Virus record (IMG/VR): IMGVR_UViG_3300008263_000003
Span: 1 to 40,339 of that record
Length of the DNA stretch: 40,339 nt
Source of the DNA: a virus
Reading direction: 5' to 3' (one strand)
In this document: piece after piece, positions 3,799-20,642 of the stretch
Position numbering within the stretch: position 1 is the stretch's first letter
Layout of the letters: each line of letters begins with the position of its first letter
Notes under the pieces: model-generated
What the model saw: the letters and a program-made list of their open reading frames with translations, nothing else
Told to the model about the DNA's origin: nothing
The model's database searches: none
Program-made: the position numbers and the translations under genes

Positions 3799-4281
3799 TC
3801 AAAGGACCGAAGCGTAACGGGCTATTGCTTTTGCTCTGCCGCCCATGGTAGCTGCTCCGCCCAAAGCTTTCAAATCGCGCATAGCTTCTTTGAAGAAGAA
3901 ACCTGGAGACTCGGCGCCCGCGCTCTTGAGTGCTGCTTTAAAGACAGTGCGTGGCTGTTGCGCTGGAAGGCTCATGCCAGCAGCTTCGACAAACAGAGAG
4001 CCTTTCGGCTTTGCTGTCTTCGCGCCATAAGCGATTGCGCCTTGCGCAGTGCGATTCATTTCGTTTGCGTCGTCGTCCATGAACTTGTCAGGGTTGAGTC
4101 CTTGGCGAGAAGCCAAGTCGCGTACCTGGAGTTGCTTAAGGGAACGGTCAAGCTTGATGTCATCCGAGCTAATAAAACGGTCTACAAGCGCGTCACCAAG
4201 CTTGTTCGCGCTATAGAGCTTCATCGCGTAGGCGATGGCGCGCTCGTTCTCGCTTGAGGGAGTAAGGAACCACTCAATCAT
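3799..4281 (-). CDS. Unknown helical late protein, 160 aa
   Basis: No family is recognised. The N-terminal half is helical and charged (NERAIAYAMKLYSANKLGDAL, then SLKQLQVRDLASRQGL). The C-terminal half is Ala/Gly/Lys-rich and ends in a basic segment (GGRAKAIARYASVL). There is no obvious membrane segment. The ATG shares a base with the stop of the upstream glycine-zipper gene (TAATG), and the end of that gene supplies a GGAGGGG ribosome binding site. It closes the run of small genes between capsid and terminase and may work with the glycine-zipper proteins. Confidence 0.7.
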   Translation of the reverse strand: MIEWFLTPSSENERAIAYAMKLYSANKLGDALVDRFISSDDIKLDRSLKQLQVRDLASRQGLNPDKFMDDDANEMNRTAQGAIAYGAKTAKPKGSLFVEAAGMSLPAQQPRTVFKAALKSAGAESPGFFFKEAMRDLKALGGAATMGGRAKAIARYASVL

Positions 4282-4808
4282 TACATCCCCTCCATCATCT
4301 TCTGACGAAGCATCCGCTCTTTCTGCTCTCTGCTGAGATTGCGAATGAAATCCATTTGCATTCCTTCGTCAGAGCCTTGATAAGCGCCAATAGCTGCCCC
4401 ACCAGCTCCAACAGAGGCCATCGGCGCGGCAACGCCTTTCATGTTCTTTATACCGCGAGAAATGAGGCCTCCTCCAAGCTTGCTTGCAACAACGTTGCGA
4501 ACAGAAGGAATAGCCATCAAAGAGCCTAGAGCAGCCCCAGACAAACCGCCCGCAATAGCTCCACCAGCGCCAAGCCTTTTTGTATAACCAGAACCATCTT
4601 CTTCAGAGGGAGAGCCCAGCGCCTTAAGCCCAATAGCTCCGGACAAACCCGCAAGACCGCCAGACAGAGCAGAACCGATGGCTGCTGCTTTTCCTGCCGC
4701 TCGAAGGGTAGGAGCGCCGCCAAGCAAAGAGCCGACACCGCCAATAAGACCGCCAGAAACTCCGCCGGACGCTATTAGTTTAAGAAGCTCTTTGTCGTTC
4801 TCATCCAT
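4281..4808 (-). CDS. Glycine-zipper protein, 175 aa (cluster member 5)
   Basis: This is the last of five consecutive small proteins dominated by G/A-x3-G/A repeats. A short charged start (MDENDKELLKLI) precedes two blocks of glycine-zipper helices (GGVSGGLIGGVGSLLGG, then GLAGLSGAIGL). A further block (GGAIAGGLSGAALGSLMA) leads to a soluble tail rich in R, K, E and M (SREQKERMLRQKMM). Glycine-zipper helices pack tightly in membranes or oligomeric channels. In phages such segments occur in virion proteins that are injected with the DNA or span the host envelope. The ATG lies inside the last codons of the preceding gene (8-base overlap). The function is inferred. Confidence 0.75.
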   Translation of the reverse strand: MDENDKELLKLIASGGVSGGLIGGVGSLLGGAPTLRAAGKAAAIGSALSGGLAGLSGAIGLKALGSPSEEDGSGYTKRLGAGGAIAGGLSGAALGSLMAIPSVRNVVASKLGGGLISRGIKNMKGVAAPMASVGAGGAAIGAYQGSDEGMQMDFIRNLSREQKERMLRQKMMEGM

Positions 4809-5070
4809 TGACTTCTCTCTTTGCTATTTTGCGCAAGTCATTACCAAAAAATGGATATCCGCGCTCCAGAAGCATTTCGTCGAGATGGTCTTTTGCCCCT
4901 GGCATAAGGGCTTGCATAATAATCGGGTCAGGTTTTTTTTCTGCTTCTCTTGCTTTTTTGTTTCTGTAGCTATTCATGATACCAGCCCCGCCAACAACTC
5001 CGGCGGACGCACCACCAAGAGCGGACAAAAGCTTTGGATTACTTTTCAATGCTTTCAAGAGAGCATTCAT
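4801..5070 (-). CDS. Small glycine-zipper protein, 89 aa (cluster member 4)
   Basis: It begins MNALLKALKSNPKLLSAL, then a short glycine-zipper/hydrophobic stretch (GGASAGVVGGAGIM), then a soluble charged part (KKAREAEKKPDP, then LDEMLLERGYPFFGNDLRK). The start MNAL-KAL is shared with the next gene upstream (5074-5373), which suggests an old tandem duplication. A single short hydrophobic helix with a charged tail would suit a membrane-inserting or capsid-lumen protein. The exact function is not recognised. The gene overlaps its downstream neighbour and is three bases from the upstream gene. Confidence 0.7.
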   Translation of the reverse strand: MNALLKALKSNPKLLSALGGASAGVVGGAGIMNSYRNKKAREAEKKPDPIIMQALMPGAKDHLDEMLLERGYPFFGNDLRKIAKREVNG

Positions 5071-5073
5071 AAA

Positions 5074-5373
5074 TCACCCAATTCCGAGCCTTTTCAAAAG
5101 GCCGTCTTCGTCTTCTTCGTCGCCTTCTTCGTCACCCATGGCTTCTGAAAGACCATAGCCAGCGCCAAGGGCGCCAGCGCCAATGGCGCCCGCTCCGCCT
5201 TTGTTGGCAGAAAGGAGCTGTTTTATTGCCCCCATCTTGCCGCCTTGGCCCATAACAGCGCCATTTCCACCCATGGCAATCTCTTTCCCGCCTTTTGCGA
5301 TGTTTCCGACTTCAGACGCAAGGGTTTTTCCCCTCCCTCCAGCCGCAAGCAGTGCCTTCATAAGTGCGTTCAT
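5074..5373 (-). CDS. Small glycine-rich protein with acidic tail, 99 aa (cluster member 3)
   Basis: It begins MNALMKALLAAGG and is glycine-rich throughout (KGGKEIAMGGNGAVMGQGG). One glycine-zipper segment (GGAGAIGAGALGAGYGL) follows. The end is a strongly acidic tract of D and E just before LLKRLGIG. The shared start with the 4801-5070 gene points to paralogy. The combination of zipper and acidic tail is compatible with an ejected or membrane-associated virion protein. It is one base from the preceding gene's stop, so it belongs to the same transcript. Confidence 0.7.
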   Translation of the reverse strand: MNALMKALLAAGGRGKTLASEVGNIAKGGKEIAMGGNGAVMGQGGKMGAIKQLLSANKGGAGAIGAGALGAGYGLSEAMGDEEGDEEDEDGLLKRLGIG

Positions 5374-5374
5374 A

Positions 5375-5833
5375 TTAATCCTCTTTTCTCATTCCAACTT
5401 GGCCAAGCGAAGAGCCTATTGCAGCCCCAAAAGGGAGCGCGGCTGTAGCGTTTTTCATTCTTGCGCCTGGAGTTTTTCCAAGCTTTGCGAGAAGAGCTGG
5501 GTTTTTCTTTAAAGCGAGCATAAGTGCTGTCGCTCCTGCGCCTGCCCCTAGGGTTCCACCAAGAGAGCCAAGCCCCGCACCCATGGCCTGGCCTGCGCCT
5601 TCGCCCTCGGGTGCAAACGCGCCAGCACCTAGCGCGCCGCCCGCAGCGTCCCCCGCTGCGCCGCCACCTATCGCGCCCAGAAGAGCCATAAGAGCAGCCT
5701 TTTTTGGGTCGCCCTTTTTCATCCCAAGTTTAGCACCGGTCAGGGCTCCGCCGACGGCACCGACTCCGCGCCCGACCATGGAGCCCCCAGCCCCACCCAA
5801 TAAAGACCCTAAATAGTTTTTTTCTTCTTTCAT
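5375..5833 (-). CDS. Glycine-zipper protein, 152 aa (cluster member 2)
   Basis: Nearly the whole protein is small residues in zipper spacing: GSLLGGAGGSMVGRGVGAVG near the start, then ALMALLGAIGGGAAGDAAGGA, and GAGLGSLGGTLGAGAGATA further on. Short lysine-rich hinges (KLGMKKGDPKKA, LKKNPALLAKLGK) separate the blocks. Such a protein can form several tightly packed transmembrane or channel helices. The motif KKNPALLAKLGK resembles KSNPKLLSALGG of the 4801-5070 gene and KSSPDLRKKLLAAL of the 5842-6129 gene, which supports common ancestry. The role is inferred from composition and position just after the capsid gene. Confidence 0.75.
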   Translation of the reverse strand: MKEEKNYLGSLLGGAGGSMVGRGVGAVGGALTGAKLGMKKGDPKKAALMALLGAIGGGAAGDAAGGALGAGAFAPEGEGAGQAMGAGLGSLGGTLGAGAGATALMLALKKNPALLAKLGKTPGARMKNATAALPFGAAIGSSLGQVGMRKED

Positions 5834-5841
5834 TTTATACC

Positions 5842-6129
5842 CTAATCAGCGAGGTAATTTGCCGCGCCAGCCCCAGCGCCACTGCCGAGCATTGAGCCCG
5901 CAAGCGCGGCCAGAAGTTTCTTCCGCAAATCTGGGCTGCTTTTTGCCAAAACAGAAGCAAGAGCGCCGCCGCCAGCACCTCCGGCTAGAGCTCCAAACCC
6001 AGAAGCTACGCCTTTTTTGAGGCCTTGCCCTTCTTTGGCTTTCATTGCTCCGGCTGTGCCTGCGCCAATACCGCCGAAACCAGTGCCCCAAAGAGCCGCG
6101 TTTAATGCTTCGTCTTCTCTACGACCCAC
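5842..6129 (-). CDS. Small glycine-zipper protein, 95 aa (cluster member 1)
   Basis: A short charged start (MGRREDEALNAALWG) is followed by glycine-zipper segments (GTGFGGIGAGTAGAM, then GFGALAGGAGGGALASVLA). A basic hinge (KSSPDLRKKLL) and a final zipper helix (GSMLGSGAGAGAANYL) complete it. It has the same zipper-hinge-zipper pattern as its neighbours. Its start overlaps the end of the 78-residue gene by 11 bases. No enzymatic motif is visible. A membrane or ejection-channel function is plausible, not shown. Confidence 0.72.
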   Translation of the reverse strand: MGRREDEALNAALWGTGFGGIGAGTAGAMKAKEGQGLKKGVASGFGALAGGAGGGALASVLAKSSPDLRKKLLAALAGSMLGSGAGAGAANYLAD

Positions 6130-13151: not shown

Positions 13152-13162
13152 CGGTTCCGTCC

Positions 13163-13187
13163 ATCGTCATCGTTTATCGTCATCGTT
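13163..13187. repeat. 13-bp-period direct repeat in the leader of the ATPase gene
   Basis: ATCGTCATCGTT occurs at 13163-13174 and again at 13176-13187, one base apart. The copies lie downstream of the candidate leftward promoter and ahead of the ATPase start, where an operator would act. Two copies only, so this is not a CRISPR array. Confidence 0.55.
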
Positions 13188-13203
13188 CGTCAATACTTGC
13201 AAA

Positions 13204-13232
13204 TCTGTAGTTCTTTCTTTTCCGATAGTCAA
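13204..13232 (-). promoter_or_regulatory. Candidate leftward promoter with phage-specific motif
   Basis: On the minus strand TTGACT (13232-13227), a 17-base spacer and TACAGA (13209-13204) form a promoter-like element ahead of the ATPase gene. The longer form, TTGACTAT plus 15 bases plus TACAGAT, recurs with the same spacing on the plus strand at 15849-15878. That recurrence is the main support. The -10 element is weak for sigma70, so a phage-modified or alternative recognition is possible. Confidence 0.5.
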
Positions 13233-13235
13233 GCA

Positions 13236-13267
13236 GGTTTGCAAAACCAACCCCGGCATGCTCTAAT
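13236..13267 (+). promoter_or_regulatory. Candidate rightward promoter with overlapping palindrome
   Basis: TTGCAA (13239-13244), 17 bases and TCTAAT (13262-13267) give a reasonable sigma70-like promoter for the plus-strand block starting at 13334. The -35 lies within the imperfect palindrome GGTTT-GCA-AAACC (13236-13248), a likely operator. With the leftward promoter it forms a compact divergent switch. Confidence 0.45.
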
Positions 13268-13284
13268 CATCGAACTTTTCACAA

Positions 13285-13312
13285 CAAAAAACCCATACGT
13301 GGCGCGTATGGG
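13285..13312 (-). terminator. Hairpin with U-tract on the minus strand (also in the plus leader)
   Basis: CCCATACG (13292-13299) pairs with CGTATGGG (13305-13312) around a five-base loop. Read on the minus strand it is followed by TTTTTTG, an intrinsic-terminator layout that would stop antisense transcripts entering the leftward block. On the plus strand it is a leader hairpin without a U-tract, 21 bases before the start codon at 13334. Confidence 0.5.
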
Positions 13313-13333
13313 CTTAGATATCTCAAGGATGTC

Positions 13334-14623
13334 ATGAACATAGCAGAAATTGCAGAATCGTCAAGCGGTTTGGTTCGTGAATTGTACCGAGAAGCGTTGG
13401 GAAACAATCTGCCTTATCCGGAATTTGCAATGGCGTGCGCGTTGCATTGTGTCGGCGGGGTTGCAGCGCGTGCGTACGTTTGGCCTACAGCAACAGCGCC
13501 AACATTCTACAGCTTTATTGTAGGAGAGCCGGGCGCAGGAAAGAATGGCTATCTTAAGTTCGTCGAGTCGTACCTTTGTGCGGTTGAAGAAAAGTACGTC
13601 ATCGGCAGGCTTGTCTCGCGCGTGGGAACAGTTGCGGAGCTTTCAAGATGGCCATGCCGCACATCTATAGAGGACGAAATCGGCAACTCCTGGCTTGAGA
13701 CCTACGCTCCCAGAGCCTCCGAGGCGAAGCGCGAGATTCAAGACCTCCTGCTCACTCTCTATGGCGAAAACAAAAGTCTCGCAGGCACGGCAAACAAGAA
13801 GGTCGAAGACCAAATCAAACGCGTCTACTGGCCACGGTTCAGCATCTTTGGAGCGACCACGCGTTCAGCCACACAAGAACTTACGCAGACCAAAGCCTTC
13901 GAGAGAAGCGGCATGCTCTCTCGCTTGCTTGTCTGGGAAGCGGAGAAGACCATTCTTCCAAGAGAAGCGCCCACGCGCTGGGAGATGAGCGAGAGGAACC
14001 TGGACGCTCTCAGGCGCATCGCCAGGGCAGGGTTTAATGCCCTAGACGTTGAAACCGGCGGGGCCGAGATGAAGAAGTCACCCTCTGCGGAGGTGAGGCT
14101 GTCCCATGAGGCTAAGGACGCGCTTTTAGGCTGGCTGCGAGCCTCTTCAGACAAGCGCGCCGCTCTGTCTCCAGAGGACAGCGAGGTCTTTGGGCAGGTC
14201 TATTCTCGCGCCACAGACAACGCCTATCGCTTTGCCTACGCCCACTGCGCAGGTCGGGAGTCTATAGAGGTGTCTGAGGCCGATGCTGCATTCGGCATAG
14301 CGTTGGCCCATTACCACCTCGAGGCCACGCTGGCGCGTATGGGGAGGCTCTCTGAGGAGCAGGAGCTGATGGATCTCGTTCTGTCATGGCTGAAGAAGCA
14401 TGGGGCTATGAGCGTTCGTTCGATTGCTCGAAATGCAGACAGAAAGCTCAGACACGCGGGCAGCGCTAGAATTAGGGCTTTGCTCGAAGAACTAGCAAAT
14501 TCCGGTCTCGTGAAACGGGAAAAAGCGACTGGGGAGAAGACAGCCGAGACGTGGGCTCCTGTGGGTGGCGCCATCCGAAGGCTTCAGGTTGCCAGGGTTG
14601 CGAAGGAGGATAAACCCGTGTAA
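13334..14623 (+). CDS. DUF3987-like replicative helicase/primase-helicase protein
   Basis: The 429-residue P-loop protein has FIVGEPGAGKNGYLKF at about 61-76 as Walker A (N71 follows the lysine instead of S/T). SIEDEIG at 110-116 is the acidic motif, and RFSIFGATTR near 175 is sensor-like. The C-terminus (about 350-410) is a winged helix (MSVRSIARNADRKLRH, then IRALLEELANSGLVKREK). This layout fits DUF3987-type phage helicases. The gene is immediately upstream of an iteron-rich region, which fits an origin-loading role. The start is ATG at 13334 with AAGGA four bases before it. It opens the plus-strand block. An AAACATG-AA-CATGTTT palindrome (14623-14638) directly follows the stop codon. Confidence 0.75.
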   Translation: MNIAEIAESSSGLVRELYREALGNNLPYPEFAMACALHCVGGVAARAYVWPTATAPTFYSFIVGEPGAGKNGYLKFVESYLCAVEEKYVIGRLVSRVGTVAELSRWPCRTSIEDEIGNSWLETYAPRASEAKREIQDLLLTLYGENKSLAGTANKKVEDQIKRVYWPRFSIFGATTRSATQELTQTKAFERSGMLSRLLVWEAEKTILPREAPTRWEMSERNLDALRRIARAGFNALDVETGGAEMKKSPSAEVRLSHEAKDALLGWLRASSDKRAALSPEDSEVFGQVYSRATDNAYRFAYAHCAGRESIEVSEADAAFGIALAHYHLEATLARMGRLSEEQELMDLVLSWLKKHGAMSVRSIARNADRKLRHAGSARIRALLEELANSGLVKREKATGEKTAETWAPVGGAIRRLQVARVAKEDKPV

Positions 14624-14639
14624 AACATGAACATGTTTC

Positions 14640-15045
14640 TTTCTCCGGTTCTGTTCTGGTCGCCAAGTTGGCGACAAATTGGCGACCTTTTGGCGACAAA
14701 TTTCAGAGCGAACCGACTGGAAGGATTCATAAAATAGAGCGTGTCGCCAAAGTCGCCACGTTTGTAGAGAGTCAGGGTCTAAAACGTATATATATTATAC
14801 GTTTTAGACCCTTGCGTCTTTTTACAGGCAAAAAGCATGCCTGTGAGACCATGGAAACTAAAAAACTAGGTTCTTAACCGGCGACTTGGCGACAAGGCCT
14901 TAGTTGTTGTTCTCTCCGTAAGCTGCACCCCGTCTCCACCCGGTCGCCACCTCATTTTATAGCAAACTTATTAATTTAATAATACATGATAGTTACATAC
15001 GTTTTGCTTGTCGCCAACTTGTCGCCAAACACTTGCGACCGCACA
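14640..15045. other. Putative replication origin: iteron cluster, palindrome and AT-rich stretch
   Basis: The 531 bases after the helicase gene (14624-15154) hold no convincing gene. They hold about eleven copies of (T)TGGCGAC or its complement, near 14659, 14668, 14679, 14690, 14743, 14752, 14880, 14886, 14943, 15010 and 15021. Three in tandem (14668, 14679, 14690) and two later (15010, 15021) are spaced exactly 11 bp apart, one helical turn. Between them lie a 37-base hairpin (14775-14811) and an AT-rich stretch (about 14951-15006). Iterons, hairpin, an AT-rich unwinding segment and an adjacent helicase gene are the hallmarks of an origin. It could instead be a multi-site operator. Confidence 0.65.
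14775..14811. repeat. 16-bp perfect inverted repeat with 5-base loop
   Basis: GGGTCTAAAACGTATA (14775-14790) and its exact complement (14796-14811) flank the loop TATAT. The stem would be one of the most stable AT-centred structures in the genome. It lies in the middle of the iteron region. On the plus strand it is followed by TTGCGTCTTTTT, so it might also act as a terminator. A cruciform or priming site is equally possible. Confidence 0.85.
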
Positions 15046-15154: not shown

Positions 15155-15427
15155 ATGAACCGCACAACCAGACAAAAGATAATCGCTTGGCTAAACGTTT
15201 TTCACGCAGGGCATCCTATCCCTGCTCATGGTCGCCCTCGGGAGATGCTTTCCGCCGTCCCTCAAGAAGCTCTGGAGACAGAGATCGAAGCCATGCTCGC
15301 GGAAGGCCTCCTGCGCGTCCGTGAGAGCGATGGGCGGGTAACCCTAGCCTCTCTCCCTCTCAAGCAGCTCCCTGAGCCCGCAGGGCGCATTTCAAGGAGG
15401 GCGGCCGATGTTCGCCTGGGTGTATGA
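15155..15427 (+). CDS. Small winged-helix-like protein, 90 aa
   Basis: The protein begins MNRTTRQKIIAWLNVFHAGH. It continues with VPQEALETEIEAMLAEGLLR and a wing-like VRESDGRVTLASL. The helix-helix-strand pattern ending in a wing resembles a small winged-helix DNA-binding protein. The C-terminus is basic (GRISRRAADVR). No specific family is named. It is the first gene after the putative origin and may bind it or regulate the small genes that follow. The ribosome binding site is weak. Confidence 0.6.
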   Translation: MNRTTRQKIIAWLNVFHAGHPIPAHGRPREMLSAVPQEALETEIEAMLAEGLLRVRESDGRVTLASLPLKQLPEPAGRISRRAADVRLGV

Positions 15428-16877: not shown

Positions 16878-17120
16878 ATGAGCAACCGATTCAGTTACGT
16901 GCGTTACGATATTCATTCTGCAAGCAAGCAAGCTATGTTTAAGAACGCTTTCGAGGCGCTTGAAGCTCTCGGCGAAGCTGAGTTGGACTCGACTCGTCAT
17001 AAGGCTCTCTTCATGACGAAGCTCGAAGAGGCTTATGCGTGCACAGGAAGGGCCATACGCGACGACCAAATTGCGCGAACTGGCAAGGTCGACGAACAGC
17101 CGGAAAGGAATGCCGAGTGA
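16878..17120 (+). CDS. Acb2-like anti-CBASS cyclic-nucleotide sponge candidate, 80 aa
   Basis: This small helical protein reads MSNRFSYVRYDIHSASKQAM, then a helix FKNAFEALEALGE. It continues with HKALFMTKLEEAYACTGRAI and RDDQIART. The second helix pattern (A-L-x-x-TKLEEA, six to eight residues, AIRDDQ) is the signature I associate with the Acb2 family (T4 Vs.4 relatives). Acb2 forms hexamers that sequester cyclic di- and trinucleotides made by CBASS and related bacterial defences. The length fits the family. It has an AAGGGA site and overlaps the endolysin start (GTGA). The assignment is by eye; the ligand-binding residues have not been aligned. Confidence 0.7.
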   Translation: MSNRFSYVRYDIHSASKQAMFKNAFEALEALGEAELDSTRHKALFMTKLEEAYACTGRAIRDDQIARTGKVDEQPERNAE

Positions 17121-18409
17121 AGACAAATAAAGCCGGATTCGACCTCATCAAGGAATTTGAGGGGTATCACAAAGCGCTTCCAAACGGAGACGCCGAGGCC
17201 TACATTGACCCCGTGGGCATTTGGACAATCGGCTGGGGCTCTATCATGCTCAACGGTCGTCCTGTGCGACGTGGTGACGTCATCTCTCGAAAGCTGGCGG
17301 ATGAACTTCTTGAAGCGGAAGTCGCAGGGTTCGAGAAAGACGTTGAGCGACTCGTCAAGGTTGAGCTGAACGAGAATCAACACGCGGCACTTGTGTCTCT
17401 CTGCTATAATATTGGCGCTGGCGCTTTTGCCGGTTCAACCGCACGTCGCTTGCTCAACGCTGGCGATTATCGTGGCTGTGCTGAGGCGTTCCTCATGTGG
17501 AACAAGGGCACAATCAACGGACAGCTTACAGAGCTTGCAGGCCTCACACGCCGTCGCAAAGCAGAGCGCGACTTGTTCTTGCGCGATGTGTCCATACCTG
17601 CACCACAAACCCCGATTGATGCGCCTGTATCGACACGGGGCAGACCCTACGCGCCGTGTCCTGTGCCGTTGCCTTGGAAGGTGACGTTGAAAAACACACC
17701 TTTACACTTCGCCTGGGGGGAGGACGTCTACTGGCTCCAATGCGCCCTCATCGAGCTTGAATACCTGCGCAAGCCAGCCAATGGCGAACTCGTTGGCGAC
17801 GTGTTCAATGAGCATGTTGAGTGGGCTATTAAGACCTTCCAAAACACAGCGTTTGGCCTTAATCACACAGACGGCATCGTCGGCCCAAAGACGCGCGCGG
17901 CCATCGAGGCGGCACTCACCAAAGCGCGTGCGCCGAAGCCGCCTGTGGACAACAGTGTGGCGACGCTGCGGTGCATCGAAGGCGAGTGGCATACAGGCCG
18001 CTGGGATGGCCTCAAGGTTCTGAACCTAGGCATCGGTAGCCAGACGTTCCGAGTCGCCTCAGGACAGCCTGGAAGGCAGCGTTTCCGCGAGGCGGGCGAC
18101 CCTAACAGCGTGCCTGGAAGTATGGAGCCTATTCCACAGGGGCTTTACACGTTCCATAAAGAGCCTGAGTTTGTGCACGGAAAGGACAACTACACAGGTT
18201 CGTGGGGCGAAGGTCTTGGCCCCGTCTGGCACGGATTAAGGAACGCGCAGTCTATGAGGCGCGGCTCTTTCGGCCTGCATTTAGACCCTCCTGGTGCCAG
18301 TGGCAGCGCTGGCTGTATTGTCTTTCGCGACGTAGATGACCTTAAGCGGTATGTGAAAGCTTGGCGTGAATTCAGGCCTAAGGAGCTTCGCGTTGACTGG
18401 AATCTCTAA
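17117..18409 (+). CDS. Three-domain endolysin: GH24 lysozyme, PG-binding, YkuD-like C-terminus
   Basis: The start is GTG at 17117, overlapping the previous stop. Residues about 5-145 form a GH24 (T4-type) lysozyme with catalytic E15 (KEFEGY), D31 (YIDP) and T37 (WTIGWG); the E-to-D spacing is longer than in T4 lysozyme. A PG_binding_1-type domain follows (about 207-275, with WLQCALIELEYL and DGIVGPKTRAAIEA). The C-terminal part ends in FGLHLDPPGASGSAGCIVF, where H388 and C400 resemble the HxxGxxGC catalytic motif of L,D-transpeptidase/YkuD-like enzymes. No signal peptide is seen, so a holin should be needed. A dual-activity lysin is inferred. Confidence 0.93.
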   Translation: MKTNKAGFDLIKEFEGYHKALPNGDAEAYIDPVGIWTIGWGSIMLNGRPVRRGDVISRKLADELLEAEVAGFEKDVERLVKVELNENQHAALVSLCYNIGAGAFAGSTARRLLNAGDYRGCAEAFLMWNKGTINGQLTELAGLTRRRKAERDLFLRDVSIPAPQTPIDAPVSTRGRPYAPCPVPLPWKVTLKNTPLHFAWGEDVYWLQCALIELEYLRKPANGELVGDVFNEHVEWAIKTFQNTAFGLNHTDGIVGPKTRAAIEAALTKARAPKPPVDNSVATLRCIEGEWHTGRWDGLKVLNLGIGSQTFRVASGQPGRQRFREAGDPNSVPGSMEPIPQGLYTFHKEPEFVHGKDNYTGSWGEGLGPVWHGLRNAQSMRRGSFGLHLDPPGASGSAGCIVFRDVDDLKRYVKAWREFRPKELRVDWNL

Positions 18410-19456: not shown

Positions 19457-19779
19457 ACCTCAACACGACGAGCGAGGAGCGGGACGCGGCTGAAACCAGA
19501 CTGCGCGAATGCGTTACAGAACTACCAGATGGAGCAGTCGTGTTTGACTACATGACCGACGTCACTAGGAAGCTGCGCGCACCTGACATCCGCGCGGTAT
19601 TGGACGAACTCACCCGCGTGCGCGAGGAGCTGGAGTCGGCAATGAAGGTCGTCGCCGCCGGGCGTGAAGTTATACGGTTGCTGCACGGCAATGAGCCGCC
19701 ATTTTCGAACATAGACGCCAAGCGTGTTGCACTTTTAAACTTGGAAAATGCTCTAGGAAGATTCGGAGGCCGCGAATGA
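19453..19779 (+). CDS. Unknown helical protein, 108 aa
   Basis: GTG at 19453 has GGAGG seven bases upstream and overlaps the previous stop. The protein is helical and charged (NLNTTSEERDAAETRL, then ELTRVREELESAMKVVA), with a short strand (AVVFDYMTDV) in the middle. The C-terminal helix is KRVALLNLENALGRFG. No family is recognised. The stop overlaps the start of the homing endonuclease gene. Confidence 0.62.
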   Translation: MNLNTTSEERDAAETRLRECVTELPDGAVVFDYMTDVTRKLRAPDIRAVLDELTRVREELESAMKVVAAGREVIRLLHGNEPPFSNIDAKRVALLNLENALGRFGGRE

Positions 19780-20642
19780 CTGGCAAAGTCTGGCTGTACG
19801 AGAAATGGGAAAAAGGCAAAGGCGTAACTGAGCGATGGACAGAGGATGCGCGAATGACTGACACCATGCCGACGCCTATTCCTGGCGAGGTTTGGGAAAG
19901 CTTAAGGGGTAGGTCGAAAGGTGTTTGTATAACCGTTCAGAAAGTCGAAAATGGTCGGGTTTATTTCATCGGTCGCAACAACCGCATGACTTCCTGCTCC
20001 ATTGAAAATTTCTTTTCCAAGTATCACGGATACCGTTTCACCGGGGAAAACAGACCTCTCGCAAATTCGTTCAAGAACGAAGGTGATTACGTCGCAATGT
20101 CACTCCTCAATGGTTGCGTGTGTAAAATTGATTCGTGCGATGTTTCGGCAGTTTCTCAGCATTTATGGTATTCGTTTCCTAGACAAGGAAGTCGACGAGG
20201 CGTTATTTATGAGTATCCCGGCTTTATCGTTTGCGCCCGAATAGATAAATCGACGGCATATTTGCATCGATTTTTACTAGGCGCAAAAGGCTCGCAAATC
20301 GTAGACCATGTAAATGGGGATACACTAGACAATAGAAAATCAAACTTACGGTTATGCGATGCGTCGCAAAACGCCGCTAATTCTCAAATCCAGAGAAATA
20401 ACACGTCTGGTTACAAGGGTGTCTCGTTCTATCAACAAAAGCCATCTTGGACACCTAAATGGAAAGCCCAAATAAGTGAAAACGGCAAAAGAACAAATTT
20501 AGGGTTGTTTGATTGCCCTATTGATGCAGCAAGGGTTTACGACCAAGCAGCGCGAGCAAAATGGGGTGAATTTGCTTGTGTTAATTTTCCAAAAGAAAAT
20601 GAGCAATCGGCCATGCGCCGCAAGTGGGAGCAGAACAAATGA
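19776..20642 (+). CDS. HNH homing endonuclease with AP2 domain, fused to a small phage domain
   Basis: The 288-residue protein has three parts. Residues 1-90 are a small strand-rich domain (PTPIPGEVWESLRGRSKG, then NGRVYFIGRNN) that looks like an ordinary phage protein. Residues about 150-200 hold an HNH nuclease with AYLHRFLLG (H164), IVDHVNGDTLDNRKSNLR (D177, H178, N186). Residues about 210-272 are an AP2-type DNA-binding domain (SGYKGVSF, then WKAQISENGKRTNLG, DAARVYDQAARAKWG). The last residues (MRRKWEQNK) may be a remnant of the interrupted gene. The nuclease part is visibly richer in A/T codons than its neighbours. Homing endonucleases spread by cutting related phages that lack the gene. 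Confidence 0.9.
   Translation: MTGKVWLYEKWEKGKGVTERWTEDARMTDTMPTPIPGEVWESLRGRSKGVCITVQKVENGRVYFIGRNNRMTSCSIENFFSKYHGYRFTGENRPLANSFKNEGDYVAMSLLNGCVCKIDSCDVSAVSQHLWYSFPRQGSRRGVIYEYPGFIVCARIDKSTAYLHRFLLGAKGSQIVDHVNGDTLDNRKSNLRLCDASQNAANSQIQRNNTSGYKGVSFYQQKPSWTPKWKAQISENGKRTNLGLFDCPIDAARVYDQAARAKWGEFACVNFPKENEQSAMRRKWEQNK

Follow-up and report, generated by a model that had tools for sequence, protein, structure and literature searches.

An iteron array 3' of a DUF3987 helicase gene, a probable replication origin in a tailed phage

Origins located 3' of initiator genes and the locus under study

Replication origins of the PICI satellites lie directly 3' of the initiator gene and consist of an AT-rich region flanked by two sets of iterons; they were tested on plasmids, and in 2018 their layout was described as common to no replicon except phage satellites (PMC6092414). 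In pRN1, the region 3' of the primase-helicase gene is essential, and a comparable 3' region was proposed for some phages, through a stem-loop; the alpha protein of satellite P4 binds origin repeats by its winged helix (PMC4234260).

We analyzed a virus record of 40,339 nucleotides (IMGVR_UViG_3300008263_000003), hereafter the window, over its whole length. It has a 114-bp terminal overlap, and is thus probably a complete circular contig. As in the SaPI/PICI rep-ori regions, an array of repeats sits just 3' of the putative initiator gene, iteron sets are placed around an AT-rich region, and the motif varies between elements. In contrast to these satellites, the window belongs to a tailed phage with structural genes, its candidate initiator is of the DUF3987 type and lacks a primase domain, and its array comprises more than two iteron sets and a perfect palindrome. 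The element is not itself a PICI, since genes for capsid, portal and terminase are present in the record. The likeness to pRN1 resides in the position just 3' of a primase-helicase gene, in a protein ending in a winged helix and in a stem-loop. As for P4, its helicase protein binds the origin repeats by a winged helix, and a winged helix is predicted here, but alpha carries a Toprim primase.

The candidate initiator gene (13334-14623, plus strand) codes for a helicase-type protein of 429 aa; genes for an SF2 helicase and for SSB-like and Sak4-like proteins are divergent from it. A scan of 30 window ORFs, in which small ORFs were partly covered, revealed neither polymerase, primase domain nor integrase; a phage without a polymerase of its own was also the earlier view, formed from the letters alone. 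Elsewhere in the window, we observed an endolysin (17039-18409) in which phage lysozyme and peptidoglycan-binding domains are joined to a weakly Tlde1-like C-terminus, a series of small glycine- and alanine-rich proteins, apparently paralogues (3799-6129), and an HNH endonuclease (19776-20642) that weakly matches an AP2 domain and is probably of the homing type.

The repeat array and its counterpart in a related contig

The array lies past the stop of the DUF3987 gene (14623), in the gap that extends to the next likely gene, at 15155. Within 14657-15028, i.e. about 370 bp, we found 10 exact copies of TGGCGAC and one CGGCGAC, distributed on both strands; GGCGAC is invariant in the 11 sites, and is preceded by T in 10 of them. 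The whole window contains TGGCGAC/GTCGCCA 15 times (mean of 6.6 in shuffled sequences), including 5 copies outside the array, a density that predicts 0.047 copies per 371 bp (P ~1e-20). Upon shuffling of the gap, no 7-mer was present more than 3 times, as compared to the 10 copies observed. The sequence-only reading had proposed an iteron-type origin made of about eleven such elements, facing both directions in a gene-free stretch beside the DUF3987 gene, with two groups spaced by exactly 11 bp and an AT-rich segment at 14951-15006; each of these descriptive points was borne out. It had missed the converging arrangement of the sets and the palindrome. No direct DNA relative of the array region was found in phage or plasmid collections, and a literature search, with subscription journals mostly outside its reach, returned no paper naming the motif or describing such arrays.

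Along the array, the motifs follow the order < >>> << (palindrome) >> < (AT-rich) <<. Set 1 (14659-14697, both strands) begins 35 bp past the DUF3987 stop, with a site at 14659 on the minus strand and sites at 14669, 14680 and 14691 on the plus strand, in steps of 10, 11 and 11 bp. Opposed to it, after a 45-bp spacer, is set 2 (14743-14758), with minus-strand sites at 14743 and 14752. The palindrome that follows (14774-14812) has perfect 17-bp arms and a 5-base loop (z = -8.7 for the DNA fold); it scores as terminator-like on the plus strand, and could alternatively be an extruded hairpin. Set 3 (14879-14893, plus strand) groups CGGCGAC, where only the core is present (14879-14885), and TGGCGAC at 14887, in an 8-bp step. 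A lone iteron on the minus strand (14943-14949) precedes the AT-rich segment, which reaches 79% A+T and is the candidate unwinding element, and set 4 (15010-15027, minus strand) ends the array with sites at 15010 and 15021. Exact 11-bp steps are therefore those of 14669/14680/14691 and 15010/15021, the remaining close steps being of 8, 9 or 10 bp. Two pairs of sets converge, 14669-14697 with 14743-14758, and 14879-14893 with 15010-15027, the latter pair enclosing the AT-rich segment. Phased repeats and an AT-rich region, as in iteron-type origins, are thus present, and the DUF3987 protein is the candidate initiator.

GC skew, suggested earlier as a check, is uninformative here because the cumulative minimum (13298) falls at the divergent switch of gene strand; third-codon skew by gene group gave no clear replichore signal.

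The only close relative found was a viral contig, L001, whose protein is 68% identical to the DUF3987 protein; a second search, with a two-sequence alignment, returned the same contig alone. After the helicase stop of L001, TTGCGACA replaces the TTGGCGACA of the window, and the groups succeed each other in the same order and orientation: a phased triplet, an opposed pair, a second pair, and opposed copies around an AT-rich stretch, which in the matching part of the map is located between minus-strand motifs. The layout has thus been kept while the motif changed at every site. The step from set 1 to set 2, start to start, is 52 bp in the window and 43 bp in L001. In L001, the counterpart of the palindrome showed no more folding than shuffled sequences did (z -1.1); the palindrome is thus not conserved as a structure. 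In MW202458.1, which has capsid and terminase in common with the window, no comparable array was found in the 3 gaps checked.

Gaps following primase-helicase genes in cultured phages

Cultured phages were chosen by their protein rather than by repeats, using tblastn with the window protein and with the primase-helicases of Baskent_P4_1 and of group A. The latter is a set of viral contigs (L063, L128 and others) obtained by scanning contigs for phased copies of TTGCGAC and TKGCGAC, in which a DUF3987 PrimPol-helicase gene ends at most 10 bp from the array; their proteins are more than 90% identical, and were therefore counted as one lineage. A match over most of the primase-helicase was obtained in 266 phage records. 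Among the phages fetched, the gap 3' of the primase-helicase gene was measurable in 23, being of 287-416 bp in 7 of them and of 201 bp or less in the other 16, a break between 201 and 287 bp that was noticed post hoc. Most of the primase-helicase phages sampled are thus without such a 3' gap, a point that weighs against the origin reading.

In all 7 phages whose 3' gap reached 280 bp, this gap contained a 7-mer, present on the two strands, that exceeded every shuffle. Six different motifs were counted in these 7 arrays, none being that of the window: GGGGATA in Baskent_P4_1 and Bhz54, AGGGAAA in Vibrio phage VpKK5, AGGGGAA in Vibrio 1.207.B, TATAAGG in the Halfdan variant, CGAAAAC in Achromobacter phage Axy18 and ATTAGAA in Sphingomonas phage Birtae. 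For the 16 phages with short gaps, the 450 bp that follow the stop had no comparable array, the best 7-mer occurring 2 to 5 times and the sole one to reach 5 copies being an A/T-only word; 4 of these short gaps were compared with shuffles, and none was significant. Among other gaps at the same loci, 3 of 21 reached the array level (in Seurat, R3 and MMDA13), as compared to 7 of 7 (Fisher p 1e-4, window and L001 excluded). In these three phages, the repeats may mark an origin with another location. Paracoccus phage R3 (L323:11375-11957) and Escherichia phage Seurat (L316:6307-6928) have no 3' array, and their significant two-strand repeats (ATTATAC, CCCTATA) are found at a distance of one gene from the primase, downstream or upstream of it. 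In Stenotrophomonas phage Bhz54, the repeat-bearing gap includes a perfect 77-bp tandem duplication (L306:6552-6705).

In these cultured phages, the arrays mostly consist of two opposed sets of about 2-5 copies each, many of them 7-9 bp apart, around a spacer; Birtae, for instance, has 3 copies, a 69-bp step and 3 opposed copies. Facing members of the opposed sets are separated by 69-90 bp, start to start; the steps of the window and of L001 are shorter, which also weighs against the origin reading. All seven phages resemble the window in the place of the array and in the gene module, in which SF2 helicase, SSB/DUF669 and Sak4 genes are divergent from the primase-helicase gene. They differ from it in their protein, of 740-807 aa, whose core has about 22% identity with the window protein. 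An NrS-1-type HBD domain (PF22763) was present in the 5 cultured relatives scanned, whereas the window protein gave no match to it.

Candidate readers of the iterons and competing explanations

The match of the 429-aa protein to DUF3987 (PF13148, E=5e-14) reached 52.6 bits, above the curated cut-off of 27, and a P-loop, GEPGAGKN, is present. No primase domain was found; the protein starts at the helicase part, and its match to the phrog_3022 'DNA primase' family covers only the C-terminal, helicase side of that family. No solved structure matched it by sequence. The AlphaFold2 model of the whole protein was unreliable (mean pLDDT 45.5), and the C-terminal domain was therefore used alone. This domain (14330-14620, plus strand) is predicted, with fair confidence, to be a winged helix: residues 341-410 were modelled with pLDDT mostly of 70-86 in the order H-H-H-E-E, the model matched winged-helix structures at Z 9-11, and residues 347-396 matched the transcriptional regulator family phrog_2440 (E=4e-5).

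The other protein to consider is the 90-aa product of the gene downstream of the array (15155-15427, plus strand), which had been suggested for footprinting together with the helicase. It has 44% identity over 63 aa with the L001 protein encoded at the equivalent place, and no match among 50,697 phage records; its model gave no structural match above Z 4.0. It is thus a poor candidate, and the predicted winged helix of the helicase appears to be a better candidate reader.

We then compared identities in the core and the C-terminus of the helicases. When motifs differ, the C-terminus is the more diverged, with 75% identity in the core and 43% in the C-terminus for the window and L001, and 71% and 31% for VpKK5 and Vibrio 1.207.B. 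For pairs sharing a motif, the values are 99/97 and 94/95, but these are near-identical proteins, so that the tracking of motif by C-terminus, based on few independent pairs, is at most suggestive. Faster divergence of the C-terminus may have unrelated causes, and the group A case does not fit a simple tracking, since its motif nearly matches that of the window, yet the C-termini are about 10% identical.

A first alternative is that the array is an origin whose iterons are read by the 90-aa protein, an SSB or a host protein, the helicase being recruited later. Many cultured primase-helicase phages have a gene for a small HTH protein next to that of the primase, and the winged helix of the initiator could have another role, self-reading as in P4 being a precedent and not a proof. 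However, in the window we saw no HTH gene directly upstream of the DUF3987 gene, the 90-aa protein lacks generality, and the divergence of the C-terminus roughly tracks the motif change; we regard this alternative as unlikely.

Alternatively, the repeats could form an operator array for a repressor or an activator, e.g. the 90-aa protein, which would control the rightward operon starting at 15155 or end the helicase operon, the palindrome being then a terminator. The array is indeed located between two co-directional genes, the palindrome is terminator-like, weak promoter-like matches occur at 14956-15014, one of them overlapping an iteron, and the 90-aa protein is kept next to the array in L001. 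Yet 11 sites over 370 bp exceed a usual operator, the divergent early promoter gap (13152-13333) has no copy of the motif, and promoter and terminator scans were barely above shuffles. Moreover, cultured phages with equivalent arrays have no relative of the 90-aa protein, and their arrays track the primase-helicase gene while downstream genes differ. An operator function is for these reasons rather improbable.

Specific motifs in the template determine where NrS-1 PrimPol starts (PMC8718748), and relatives of the window protein carry the NrS-1-type HBD domain (PF22763), so that the repeats might be single-stranded template signals for priming, as is TTTGGTTA for NrS-1 PrimPol; but the window protein is without the primase part, and phased, opposed double-strand arrays fit duplex binding better, which makes priming sites a very improbable explanation.

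The contigs retrieved by motif alone, which were numerous, show that a TTGCGAC array with 11-bp phasing is not diagnostic. Many bacterial matches were perfect 11-bp tandem repeats, and other arrays adjoined genes for Toprim/AAA_25 proteins, a DNA polymerase A or a replisome organiser. In three contigs, 3 TTGCGAC copies 11 bp apart were located 7-14 bp from the end of a Tn916-type integrase gene (L228:4651-4679, L285:5321-5349, L302:1287-1315), and are probably arm-type sites. The motif alone was therefore rejected as an origin marker; what marks the origin is the position after a DUF3987-type helicase gene. That the window array consists of similar arm sites for recombination or integration, as these triplets and the integrase adjoining the repeats of L021 might suggest, is scarcely credible, since no integrase or recombinase was found in the 30 window ORFs scanned and the conserved neighbour is the helicase.

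Two other kinds of arrays were observed in these scans. In some contigs, bacterial as well as viral (L238:6098-6126, L257:4538-4566, L278:1772-1800, L291:4157-4185, L164:2011-2039), phased arrays of TGGCGAC or TTGCGAC are located 6-11 bp from the end of ORFs of 403-414 aa with no Pfam match. In a family of short viral contigs (L045, L062, L068, L096, L138 and related ones), 4-10 TTGCGAC copies, many 11 bp apart and often as TTGCGACACCC, are found beside 106-aa and 260-aa proteins, the latter with no Pfam match and nuclease-like by eye.

An iteron-type origin is thus the best-supported reading, because of the same map with a changed motif in L001, the arrays of cultured phages, and the resemblance to the tested PICI origins (PMC6092414) and to pRN1. 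Very probably, the array beside the helicase gene marks where DNA copying starts. As to the full reading, in which 14657-15028 is the origin and the DUF3987 helicase-initiator binds the iterons by its C-terminal winged helix and loads there, we consider it likely. We infer that binding, melting, loading, direction and host supply would proceed as follows. The helicase, made from the gene just upstream, would bind the TGGCGAC iterons through its winged helix, and the 11-bp spacing would align these proteins along the same side of the DNA helix. Opposed sets would let two helicase assemblies face each other; these rings would melt the intervening or AT-rich DNA, 14951-15006 being the best candidate, then load and open a bubble. 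As the scan of phage ORFs revealed neither a polymerase nor a primase domain, extension of the bubble would fall to the primase and polymerase of the host, together with three phage proteins, the SSB-like one, Sak4 and the SF2 helicase.

More broadly, we hold as an evenly balanced proposition that PICI origins belong, as a single branch, to a wider tailed-phage class, in which a winged-helix helicase reads opposed iterons 3' of its own gene, reader and motif changing together by lineage. If this is true, origins would be predictable from sequence in a broad set of cultured and uncultured phages, including those of Pseudomonas, Stenotrophomonas, Vibrio, Achromobacter and Sphingomonas, and satellite and phage replicons would be linked. 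A role would also be assigned to part of the DUF3987 family, and these phages would offer naturally matched pairs of initiator domain and DNA motif, in which changes in origin specificity could be followed.
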